Shown: piece by piece, positions 60,124 through 63,864 of the stretch
How positions within the stretch are numbered: the stretch's first letter is position 1
Layout: each line of letters starts with the position of its first letter
NCBI GenBank assembly: GCA_938074205.1
Contig: CALJES010000006.1
Coordinates: 186,001-250,000, forward strand
DNA length: 64,000 bases
Reading direction: 5' to 3'
DNA from: an uncultured bacterium
GTDB taxonomy: Bacteria; Armatimonadota; UBA5829
Position numbers and translations under genes: made by a program
The notes under the pieces: generated by a model
Told to the model about the DNA's origin: nothing
What the model saw: only the letters and a program-made list of their open reading frames with translations
The model's database searches: none

Positions 60124-61635
60124 CTAAACTGACCGAATCACACCAGACGCACGCCTATCTAACACTTTGCTAAGTGCGTTTCTAGCTACTTCGCGGTCAT
60201 CGAAGTGAATAGTGTGGTCGGCAAATATCTGATAGGTTTCGTGACCCTTACCAGCAATCAGAACAAAGTCGCCAGATGTCGCCTGCTCTATGGCAGCTTC
60301 GATGGCATCCTTTCTGTCAACAATAACTTCTACCTGTGCAAGCTTTTCCTTAGGTACACCTGTCAATATCTCCGCTATTATTTCCTCAGGTTTTTCTGAA
60401 CGGGGATTGTCCGACGTTACCACTACCCTGTCCGCCAGCTCAGCCGCAATCCTGCCCATGATAGGTCTTTTGCCCCGGTCACGATCTCCGCCACAACCAA
60501 AGACGACCATCAGCCGCCTCGAAACAATTTGTTTTGCAGCCTTCAGAACATTCTCCAATTCATCAGGTGTGTGAGCATAGTCAACTACGACACCAAAATC
60601 CTGACCGCAATCCACAAACTCAAATCTACCAGGAACTCCTTTTACTGTCTCCAAGCCCACAGCAATCGTATCGACGTCGAGTCCAAACGCGACACCGACC
60701 GCTGTGGCTGCCAAAGCGTTGTAAACATTAAAGAATCCACCTATAGGCATTTCGATGCGTCTAACTGCACCTGCATAAACTAGATCAAATGAGACTCGGC
60801 GGTCAGTAACATTCACGTTGGATGCTGACAGGTCAGAGTTCGATTGGATACCAAAAGTAATAACTCTTCCCGGCGCGGCGGCGATAAATGCTGATGCAGA
60901 ATCGTCGTCCGCGTTAACAATTCCCACAAACTCCTTTGTTGATAAAGCAGGGTAATCGCGAAAGAGTTTGATTTTCGCGTTTAGGTATGCTTCCGGAGTC
61001 TTGTGAAAATCGAGATGGTCACGGGCAATGTTAGTAAATACGCCACAATCGAATTCACATCCGACCACCCGCCCTTGCTCAAGTCCGTGCGAGCTTACTT
61101 CCATCGCAACTACTTGTACGCCGCGGTCGAGCATAGTACTCAAAATTCTCTGAATATCCACGGACTCAGGAGTAGTATGTTCGGTGTCAATTAATTCGTC
61201 ACCAGTTCGCGCACCCAGAGTGCCGATTAACCCAGTCCTTTTGCCGGCCGCAGAAAAGACAGAGCATATGAGGTGAGTAACGGTAGTCTTTCCGCTCGTG
61301 CCGGTCACACCGACCAACGTGAGATCACGAGAAGGATGCCCATAAAAGTGTGCTGCCATTTCGCCCATTGCCCAACGTCCATTTTCTACTACAGCGCATG
61401 GCACCTCACCGTGAACCCCCAAAACACTGCTGTACTCTGCAACAATTGCTGACGCACCAGCTGACAGCGCCTGAGATATGAAGCTATGGCCGTCATAGGT
61501 ACCGCCCTTAATCGCTACAAAAACCGAACCTGGCCTGACGCGACGGCTGTCGTAGCATATGGCCGTGACATCCGCATCGCGGCCGTTCCATTTAAGCAAG
61601 CCCGTAACATGGATAACCAAATCTGAGAACTTCAT
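60124..61635 (-). CDS. murE: UDP-MurNAc-L-Ala-D-Glu--meso-diaminopimelate ligase MurE
   Basis: MurE adds the third amino acid of the stem. The 503-residue ligase has ICYDSRRVRPG, the P-loop GVTGTSGKTTVTH, HTTPESVDIQ, NIARDHLDFHKT and the specificity motif DNPR (in VTSDNPRSEKPEE). DNPR is the hallmark of meso-diaminopimelate-adding enzymes, so the wall should be mDAP type. A TATAAT box ends 10 bases before the ATG and no Shine-Dalgarno is present. Confidence 0.96.
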   Translation of the reverse strand: MKFSDLVIHVTGLLKWNGRDADVTAICYDSRRVRPGSVFVAIKGGTYDGHSFISQALSAGASAIVAEYSSVLGVHGEVPCAVVENGRWAMGEMAAHFYGHPSRDLTLVGVTGTSGKTTVTHLICSVFSAAGKRTGLIGTLGARTGDELIDTEHTTPESVDIQRILSTMLDRGVQVVAMEVSSHGLEQGRVVGCEFDCGVFTNIARDHLDFHKTPEAYLNAKIKLFRDYPALSTKEFVGIVNADDDSASAFIAAAPGRVITFGIQSNSDLSASNVNVTDRRVSFDLVYAGAVRRIEMPIGGFFNVYNALAATAVGVAFGLDVDTIAVGLETVKGVPGRFEFVDCGQDFGVVVDYAHTPDELENVLKAAKQIVSRRLMVVFGCGGDRDRGKRPIMGRIAAELADRVVVTSDNPRSEKPEEIIAEILTGVPKEKLAQVEVIVDRKDAIEAAIEQATSGDFVLIAGKGHETYQIFADHTIHFDDREVARNALSKVLDRRASGVIRSV

Positions 61636-61645
61636 ACTCTAAAGA

Positions 61646-61651
61646 ATTATA
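61646..61651 (-). promoter_or_regulatory. -10 box for murE, probably leaderless
   Basis: TATAAT on the minus strand (61651-61646) ends 10 bases before ATG 61635. It follows directly after the terminator-like hairpin at 61708-61777, consistent with a fresh transcription start for murE and the genes after it. Confidence 0.5.
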
Positions 61652-61707
61652 ACGCTCGCAAGGGCAGGTGTGGATTATAGAATATGCTGGACATCCCTAA
61701 AATACCG

Positions 61708-61777
61708 AAGAAAAAGAAGGGGTTGTGCAATTCGGAACAAGACTCGCCCAGTTATCTTGCCCAGCGTGCACACCCCC
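61708..61777 (-). terminator. Terminator-like long hairpin with U-tract between ftsI and murE
   Basis: On the minus strand GGGGGTGTGCA (61777-61767) pairs with TGCACAACCCC (61729-61719) at 10 of 11 positions, enclosing 37 bases. It is followed by TTCTTTTTCTTC (61718-61707). The loop contains a direct repeat CTGGGC. Confidence 0.6.
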
Positions 61778-61784
61778 TACAGTA

Positions 61785-61913
61785 TGGGTCGGCCTGCCGA
61801 AGCTAACCGACCCACGCTCTAAATAGAGCGATACCTGCCCGTAAGCAGAGAGCCGAGCAGAATGGGATCGCGGAGGACAAGCCTGAACTGCCCAGATCCC
61901 AGGACATTGTCCT
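61785..61913 (-). ncRNA. Candidate structured non-coding RNA between ftsI and murE
   Basis: The gap 61636-61959 has no plausible gene but four strong hairpins on the minus strand. AGGACATTGTCCT (61901-61913) is self-complementary. TGGGATC/GATCCCA (61863-61869 with 61895-61901) follows. CGCTCT-AAAT-AGAGCG (61815-61830) is a perfect 6-bp stem. TGGGTCGG/CCGACCCA (61785-61792 with 61807-61814) encloses a small GC-UUCG-GC tetraloop. They lead into the terminator-like stem at 61708-61777. It matches no riboswitch or housekeeping RNA motif that I recognise. It could be an independent small RNA or the 3' UTR of ftsI. Confidence 0.45.
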
Positions 61914-61959
61914 TTCCGGCGTCGTCCCAAAACTTATATCCACGACCGCAAGATTTCTC

Positions 61960-63864
61960 CTAGGCCAAACTCTTGCTACCACGCTTCTTCTCGTGTACAC
62001 TGCCGCCATTCGAAGGTTGCGGCGGAATGTGGTAGTACCAAAGCAGTTTCTGCGCAATTTCACGGAAGGCGGGCGCAGCCACAGTAGCCCCAAAATGAGA
62101 CCCATGCGGACGATTAACCACAACAGCAATTGTAAATCTAGGATTATCGGCCGGCGCGAAACCAATGAATGAAGCCACAAAGGCATTTGGTAGATAACCG
62201 CGCCCACCGGAATCCGCAACTTGCGCACTACCCGTTTTCCCCGCAATTAGATAGCCCTCAATTTTGGCATTCTTTCCTGTCCCACCTTCAACACACTGGA
62301 TAAGCATCTCTGTCAGTTTCGCAGCAGCCAAACGAGAAATTACCCTCTGAGGTTTTGGTTTCTTGAGGCGTGCCATCATCTTGCCATGAGATCCAGTGCC
62401 GCGAACTATAGTCGGCGGAACGCGCACCCCGCCGTTCGCAATAGTCGCGTATACGCTTGCCATATGCAGCGGAGTTACTGCAATTCCTTGACCGAATCCT
62501 ATGTTTGCCAAGCCGACAGTGCCCCATCGGTCGGCTTTCGGCAGGTAGCCCACTGCCTCCAAGCTAAATCCTGATTTTGGCTTTTCCAGTAGTCCAAATG
62601 CCTCCTCATAATGTCTTAGTTTCTCCGATCCCAAGCGCAGTGCCAAATGCGCTGCTCCTATATTGCACGAGTACTTGATAATTTTCTGCATATCCACCGA
62701 ACCGTGCCCATGCAGGAATGGTTGGTGTAACGAACATCGGAGATTATTTTTTCCTATTTTCTCTCGCCCAGTGCATCGCGCAAGCACACTACTGGGAGAG
62801 ATTCCTTCGTTTAAGCCTGCCGCGACAGTGATAGCTTTTAGAGTACTGCCTGGCTCATACAGACTCGCAACCGCATGATTTACCCAAGTTGACTGCGGAA
62901 ACTTGAGCGCGCTGTTAGGATCAAAGAAAGGAAAGTTAGCCAGCGCCAGGATTTCTCCGGTACGGGGATCCATAACTACGACACATGCGCTTTCAGGTTG
63001 AAATTTCTTGACAACACGTGTCAGAGCTCGTTCAGCGATATGCTGGACATTTAGGTCGATCGTCAAGAACAAGTCTTTCCCGTCTCTCGGCTCGATAAGT
63101 ACCCGTCTTTCGGCTTCTGGGATAATCCTTCCTCGAGCGTCGACCTCAGCAAGGATCTCGCCGTCTTGATTTGCCAATATGTCGTTAAATTTCCACTCGA
63201 TCCCGGCAAGAGGTCGGCCATTTATGTTTGTGAAACCCAAGACTTGAGCAGCCGCCGGCCCGGCGGGATATACTCGTTTTCTGTGAAACCATACCCCGAT
63301 TCCGGGGATTCTTTCATACCTCTTTCGGCCATCTTTTTCCACCAGCCATCCTCGCTTTACCTGGTCACCGAGTCTGGGATCAATCTTTTTTGCTAGCCAA
63401 ACGATACCTCGACCCTCGCTTATCTTTTTCCGGTAATTCTTCGGATCTCCGCCAATTAACGCAGAAAGACGATGGGCTGTAAGGCTTACATTCTGCACTT
63501 CGCGAGTGTTGGCGAAAATTGAGCACGTTCTAATGCTCACTGCTAGAGGATGACCATTGCTATCATAGATACTACCCCTAGCAGTAAGAGTTCTGATTTT
63601 GGCCCAGCGTATCTTCTCTGCCCATTTGGCATATTCATCGGCCCTACACAACTGAATGAAAACAAGCCTGCCACTTATAGCCGCGAACAGGCACAAAAAA
63701 CCCAACATCAACCACGCCGATCTTTTTTTGACAACTTCCCTAGTCCGTGACCCCATAAGACATCCCGCTCTCGACGCAGATCGGAACTCGCGTAGATCGG
63801 CAGACAACTTCTCGTCGCTACTACCTCGCGCTTGCAACGGACTGCGGCGGCTGGAGGTATTCAT
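61960..63864 (-). CDS. ftsI: Septal peptidoglycan transpeptidase FtsI (PBP3-type, class B)
   Basis: This 634-residue class B penicillin-binding protein has a cytoplasmic N-terminus of about 45 residues, one membrane helix (about 47-70), a pedestal domain (ARGSIYDSNGHPLAVS) and a transpeptidase domain with nucleophile Ser340 in STLK, SCN at 399-401 and KTGS from Lys543. No PASTA domain follows. It cross-links septal wall made by FtsW. ATG 63864 overlaps ftsL by 44 bases. ATG 63756 (MGSRTREVV), with GGGA upstream, is an alternative start. Confidence 0.94.
   Translation of the reverse strand: MNTSSRRSPLQARGSSDEKLSADLREFRSASRAGCLMGSRTREVVKKRSAWLMLGFLCLFAAISGRLVFIQLCRADEYAKWAEKIRWAKIRTLTARGSIYDSNGHPLAVSIRTCSIFANTREVQNVSLTAHRLSALIGGDPKNYRKKISEGRGIVWLAKKIDPRLGDQVKRGWLVEKDGRKRYERIPGIGVWFHRKRVYPAGPAAAQVLGFTNINGRPLAGIEWKFNDILANQDGEILAEVDARGRIIPEAERRVLIEPRDGKDLFLTIDLNVQHIAERALTRVVKKFQPESACVVVMDPRTGEILALANFPFFDPNSALKFPQSTWVNHAVASLYEPGSTLKAITVAAGLNEGISPSSVLARCTGREKIGKNNLRCSLHQPFLHGHGSVDMQKIIKYSCNIGAAHLALRLGSEKLRHYEEAFGLLEKPKSGFSLEAVGYLPKADRWGTVGLANIGFGQGIAVTPLHMASVYATIANGGVRVPPTIVRGTGSHGKMMARLKKPKPQRVISRLAAAKLTEMLIQCVEGGTGKNAKIEGYLIAGKTGSAQVADSGGRGYLPNAFVASFIGFAPADNPRFTIAVVVNRPHGSHFGATVAAPAFREIAQKLLWYYHIPPQPSNGGSVHEKKRGSKSLA

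Follow-up and report, generated by a model that had tools for sequence, protein, structure and literature searches.

What fills the one wide gap in an otherwise compact block of division and cell-wall genes? Among bacterial gene blocks the dcw cluster ranks with the best conserved, and to our knowledge few RNAs have been described within it (UpsM, FtsO and StfZ). In the stretch of DNA analysed here (64,000 nucleotides of an Armatimonadota MAG, hereafter the window), 324 nt separate ftsI from murE, whereas the other neighbouring genes of the cluster overlap or lie 4–74 nt apart. On the minus strand, murE is followed by murF, mraY, murD and ftsW, with overlaps or almost no space between them, while ftsL, rsmH and mraZ lie upstream of ftsI, outside the window, with a TTGACA/TACTAT promoter-like site preceding mraZ. 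A preliminary description of the window had singled out this sole large gap, correctly as it turns out, and had proposed that its stacked hairpins form a new structured RNA. We asked whether the gap indeed holds such an RNA, to which gene it belongs and what it might do.

Fold and parts of the ftsI–murE gap

The coding strand of the gap has a predicted folding energy of −121.8 kcal/mol, compared to −105.0 ± 5.6 kcal/mol for shuffled sequences (z = −3.0). The opposite strand, however, folds about equally well relative to its shuffles (z = −3.15), so that folding energy alone is no proof of an RNA, and the case for the RNA nature of the gap instead rests on conservation and covariation. The stems of the preliminary description are all present (Table 1), two of them with amendments. 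The stem reported to carry a UUCG tetraloop is kept in the relative G002, but the loop differs there and the tetraloop is thus not conserved. The stem with a U-tract was taken to be the end of the gap, but a further ~75 nt, including a promoter-like site, lie downstream of it. In other genera, the variable middle region likewise contains a hairpin, which at times bears a further UGGGCGA loop.

Table 1 Features of the ftsI–murE region in the window
Feature	Position	Strand	Details
ftsI	61960-63864	minus	final gene of the mraZ-rsmH-ftsL-ftsI unit, which the RNA is predicted to terminate
Hairpin 1	61863..61930	minus	closing UUGGGAC...AUCCCA
Small hairpin	61815..61830	minus	CGCUCUAUUUAGAGCG; variable middle region; counterpart in G002, CGCUCCGUUUUGGAGCG
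UUCG stem	61785..61814	minus	UGGGUCGG...GCUUCGGC...GCCGACCCA
Hairpin 3, predicted intrinsic terminator	61710..61777	minus	outer stem GGGGGUGUGC/GCACAACCCC, inner stem CAAGA/UCUUG, then UUCUUUUUC
Apical loop of hairpin 3	61743..61754	minus	12 nt, UAAC-UGGGCGA-G; heptamer UGGGCGA at 61750-61744
murE promoter-like site	61646..61674	minus	TCCACA, 17 nt, TATAAT; 10 nt from the end of the −10 to the murE ATG
murE	60124-61635	minus	opens the next transcription unit

Distribution and covariation

A DNA search found the gap in both congeners, and the element occurs in 19 of the 28 genomes that make up our sample of the class, always between ftsI and murE. Carriers belong to four families, namely f1 (genera g1–g4), f2, f3 and f4. 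Family f5 and the f1 genera g5 and g6 lack the element, their gap being either short or devoid of it. Strong matches of a model of hairpin 3 (R1) all fall between ftsI and murE or adjoin ftsI, and a model of the core hairpin (R2) found no second locus below E ~0.01 in any genome of the class. We therefore rejected a dispersed, REP-like repeat and a multi-locus regulon, as R2 matches this locus alone. A strict pattern search found no copies in viruses. In the rest of the phylum, searches with R1 and the strict pattern returned only generic terminators or near-control matches, except for an element in family f11 (see below), and in many other families, each represented by one genome, the ftsI–murE junction is mostly short and without such an element.

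Relatives preserve the stems and show covariation in them. With the hairpin arms registered by hand on the stems around the motif, which favours pairing counts, 95.3% of the cells of hairpin 3 are standard pairs and 10 of its 16 pairs show double changes, while hairpin 1 reaches 88.9% and 7 of 12, respectively. No shuffle attains the score of hairpin 3, and a slide of a single column cuts its pairing to 43–45%. When the core stems of 25 hairpins are taken together, every one of the six pairs shows double changes, and the register is again lost on a one-column slide. When 12 sequences were aligned with MAFFT and the alignment was left unedited, 7 of 18 pairs still showed double changes. The outer stem of hairpin 3 reads GGGGUUGUGY/RCACAACCCC in f1, GGGCCGUGC/GCACGGCCC in f2, GGGGUCGUGU/GCACGACCCC in f3 and GGGACCGCGC/GCGCGGUCCC in f4, differences that, judged from the aligned sequences, amount to consistent compensatory change.

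Shared ancestry was accounted for by a tree-aware null model, in which substitutions were re-dealt along the MurE tree in 200 simulations. The summed covariation of hairpin 3 (59.6) lies above all 200 simulations (1.2 ± 8.7, maximum 29.4), whereas that of hairpin 1 (22.7) is ~2.9 standard deviations above the mean but inside the simulated range (1.2 ± 7.5, maximum 25.3). The alignments thus point to covariation beyond phylogeny, strongly for hairpin 3 and more weakly for hairpin 1.

Hairpins sharing a UGGGCGA loop

Two to three hairpins per RNA carry a 12-nt loop that contains the nearly invariant heptamer UGGGCGA. Across 25 intact hairpins, the apex conforms to NNNN-UGGGCGA-R, with positions U13, G14, G15, G16, C17 and A19 invariant among the aligned copies, while the closing stem varies freely. 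The loop is found in hairpins 1 and 3 and, in several genomes, in the middle hairpin as well; in G016, hairpin 1 is duplicated and the heptamer loop occurs three times. In the window, the heptamer of hairpin 3 is intact and the loop of hairpin 1 is degenerate (UGGGCAG, 61894-61888). Hairpin 1 has a degenerate heptamer in G000 and G002, compared to an intact UGGGCGA in hairpin 1 of G001, G004, G005, G008, G009 and G013–G018. Hairpin 3 has lost the heptamer in G003, G004 and G008, each of which keeps it elsewhere in its RNA. Taken together, these losses indicate that the RNA can do without any one copy. Distances between hairpins vary freely, and unrelated repeats have been inserted between them in G004, G008 and G014, which suggests that the hairpins are separate modules.

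Two side observations concern individual lineages. A palindromic insert, GGTGTTTCGGGANTTNANTCCCGAAAC, lies between or beside the hairpins in the gaps of G004, G008 and G014 (L011, L088 and L017), recurs near murE in G014 and has a similar counterpart in the gap of G018 (L087); it looks like a small dispersed repeat. In the f4 genomes G021 (L166), G019 and G025 (L094, L095), the UGGGCGA loop is confined to the terminator hairpin, and their upstream hairpins have the string AAGGAUAGGAAC in common, which may be a second conserved loop.

Relation to the neighbouring genes

Hairpin 3 is GC-rich and followed by a U-tract, which at the sequence level predicts intrinsic termination, although a simple terminator scanner misses it, its loop being long. 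The ftsI unit invariably closes with this hairpin. Between this terminator and murE, a TATAAT is present in the 14 genomes listed. In f1, this site (mostly GCGTTATAAT) lies 7–10 nt before the murE ATG in most genomes, so near the start codon that the murE mRNA of this family is probably leaderless or nearly so. In f5, murE has a longer 5′ UTR.

The arrangement in G008 separates the two genes further, since in that genome the RNA still adjoins ftsI but is divided from murE by an open frame of 633 aa. This frame (L217 1769-3667) is inserted inside the dcw cluster and by eye resembles a prolyl-oligopeptidase-type peptidase. The TATAAT downstream of the RNA and the G008 arrangement together argue that the RNA is the 3′ end of the mraZ–ftsI unit and not a leader of murE, and these sequence comparisons give good support to its placement in the 3′ UTR of that operon. 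A promoter of the RNA itself immediately before hairpin 1 was rejected, as inspection by eye showed no conserved −10 there. In position, the RNA agrees with sRNAs derived from 3′ UTRs, being located behind a coding sequence and bounded by the terminator of that unit. A small RNA or a regulated 3′ UTR, as considered at the outset, matches this anatomy more closely than a leader of murE would; any regulatory effect, including the tuning of septal versus precursor synthesis suggested there, is putative.

Searches for known families, targets and partners

Rfam 15, searched with the window and its relatives at gathering thresholds and in a permissive E-value mode, contains no family that matches the RNA; the only Rfam match in the window is a tRNA-Leu, located elsewhere than the gap. 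Our literature search found no paper on the RNA or its motif.

Complements of the loop occur in the genus at chance (control) frequency, and exact complements in G000 and its relatives fall at unrelated places, hence we propose no target. Hfq genes are present in most carriers, with none detected in G017 and G021 (both at least 92% complete). The best-known protein partner of repeated hairpin loops is CsrA, whose signature is GGA. CsrA is found in all 19 carriers and also in five of the nine genomes without the RNA; genus g5 and G024, which both lack the RNA, have no CsrA. A GGA is not a conserved feature of the hairpin loops, as it would be in CsrB/RsmZ, and is absent from most f1 loops of hairpin 3.

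Several known RNAs resemble the element in part. Sequestering RNAs of the CsrB/RsmZ type also combine several hairpins, the same short loop motif and modular spacing, but their loops carry GGA (ANGGA), whereas here UGGGCGA is invariant and GGA is not conserved. Staphylococcal RNAIII likewise presents the same loop in several hairpins, the terminator hairpin included; its C-rich loops base-pair with ribosome-binding sites, in contrast to the G-rich loops described here, for which no target was found. The guanidine-II (mini-ykkC) riboswitch has two similar hairpins with identical loops, but these are kissing hairpins with ACGR loops in a 5′ leader, while the present loops are non-palindromic, lie in a 3′ UTR and have no Rfam match.

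Two sRNAs are closer in genomic location. FtsO, a gammaproteobacterial sRNA located within the ftsI ORF of E. coli, is thought to be processed and sponges RybB via an unstructured region (PMC7815308). Both would be regulatory RNAs from the ftsI message, that role being a candidate one here; however, the present RNA lies downstream of ftsI instead of inside its ORF and is strongly structured, with repeated loops. UpsM of Rhodobacter is a terminator-ended sRNA of the dcw 5′ leader that precedes mraZ (PMC5089854). It shares with the present RNA the terminator, the dcw cluster and the restriction to one lineage, but belongs to the mraZ 5′ UTR rather than the ftsI 3′ UTR and has another structure.

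Interpretation and alternatives

That the gap holds a real, conserved and lineage-restricted structured RNA matching no known RNA family is, in our view, near certain. The proposal of a candidate new structured RNA stands, given the lack of an Rfam match, the covarying stems and the absence of a conserved frame. Concerning its function, we lean, by a modest degree, towards a modular 3′-UTR RNA of the mraZ-rsmH-ftsL-ftsI mRNA whose loops dock a putative trans-acting partner and which may be released as an sRNA. In the window, an RNA of ~200–240 nt would form the 3′ UTR of this operon mRNA, from which processing might release a small RNA. The repeated loops would dock several copies of one trans-acting partner, which could be an RNA-binding protein or a complementary RNA. 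One outside partner common to the loops is suggested because the identical loops are neither self-complementary nor palindromic and cannot kiss, and because the hairpin spacing is free. Such a partner could couple division and cell-wall synthesis to the ftsI message, through its stability or its output, or to the partner's own availability.

A closely related possibility, overlapping with this docking RNA and to be entertained with real reserve, is a trans-acting sRNA processed from the ftsI 3′ UTR that pairs with mRNAs via its UGGGCGA loops, with a redundancy like that of RNAIII. It would account for an unpaired heptamer that is conserved, repeated and present even in the terminator hairpin, and for it speak the Hfq genes of most carriers. 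However, loop complements do not exceed chance, Hfq was not detected in the two nearly complete genomes mentioned above, and a loop of almost constantly 12 nt exceeds the need of a pairing seed. We consider it unlikely that the RNA is a purely cis-acting 3′ end, in which the terminator and stems stop transcription and shield the ftsI mRNA from 3′ exonucleases with no trans partner. In its favour, hairpin 3 and the U-tract make a good intrinsic terminator at the constant end of the ftsI unit, the RNA remains beside ftsI in G008, and family f11 also has a terminator in the gap; yet a terminator requires no invariant heptamer, let alone one repeated in two to three hairpins and kept over four families despite changes in the stems, and terminators elsewhere in these genomes lack it.

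Little probability remains for a riboswitch or attenuator governing readthrough into murE, which the location upstream of murE, the terminator at the end and hairpins reminiscent of tandem aptamers would suggest. We rejected this leader because the promoter-like site lies downstream of the RNA and the 633-aa frame of G008 intervenes, so that the position is not that of a 5′ UTR; moreover, the sequence between the hairpins is unrelated and free in length, and no alternative antiterminator pairing was seen. Least probable by far is a coding or DNA-level feature. The gap does have open frames of 46–78 codons, but a small protein was rejected as these are not conserved: in G001 and G013 the 77-aa frame is interrupted by in-frame stops or changes of frame, in line with the initial judgement that no frame looks coding. 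UGGGC also resembles the TGGGN repeats bound by MraZ, which are closely spaced in double-stranded DNA at the mraZ promoter. Here, the motif occurs once per covarying hairpin, at intervals of at least 100 nt, and UGGGCGA is absent from the mraZ promoters inspected; MraZ boxes were rejected on both grounds.

Family f11 and significance

Only one other family examined outside the class, the separate Armatimonadota family f11, has an element at the ftsI–murE junction. Its gap holds a hairpin with the conserved loop GCUCCGGU(U), in which 5 of 10 predicted pairs show double changes, followed by a terminator (GGGGYCGUGCC...GGCACGRCCCC-UUUUU; L201–L215, e.g. L211, L108, L112). The f11 element may be a divergent homologue or may have arisen in parallel.

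Tentatively, a new class of RNA might begin with this one: a docking RNA of modular build, embedded in the 3′ end of the division operon, that would use its identical loops to recruit a dedicated putative partner or to titrate it. Together with the f11 analogue, it would make the ftsI–murE junction a recurrent site for loop-displaying regulators of division. A structured RNA at this boundary offers a handle on the coordination of septal and precursor synthesis in a poorly studied phylum, and its loop, held almost fixed by selection, provides a direct bait for the partner.
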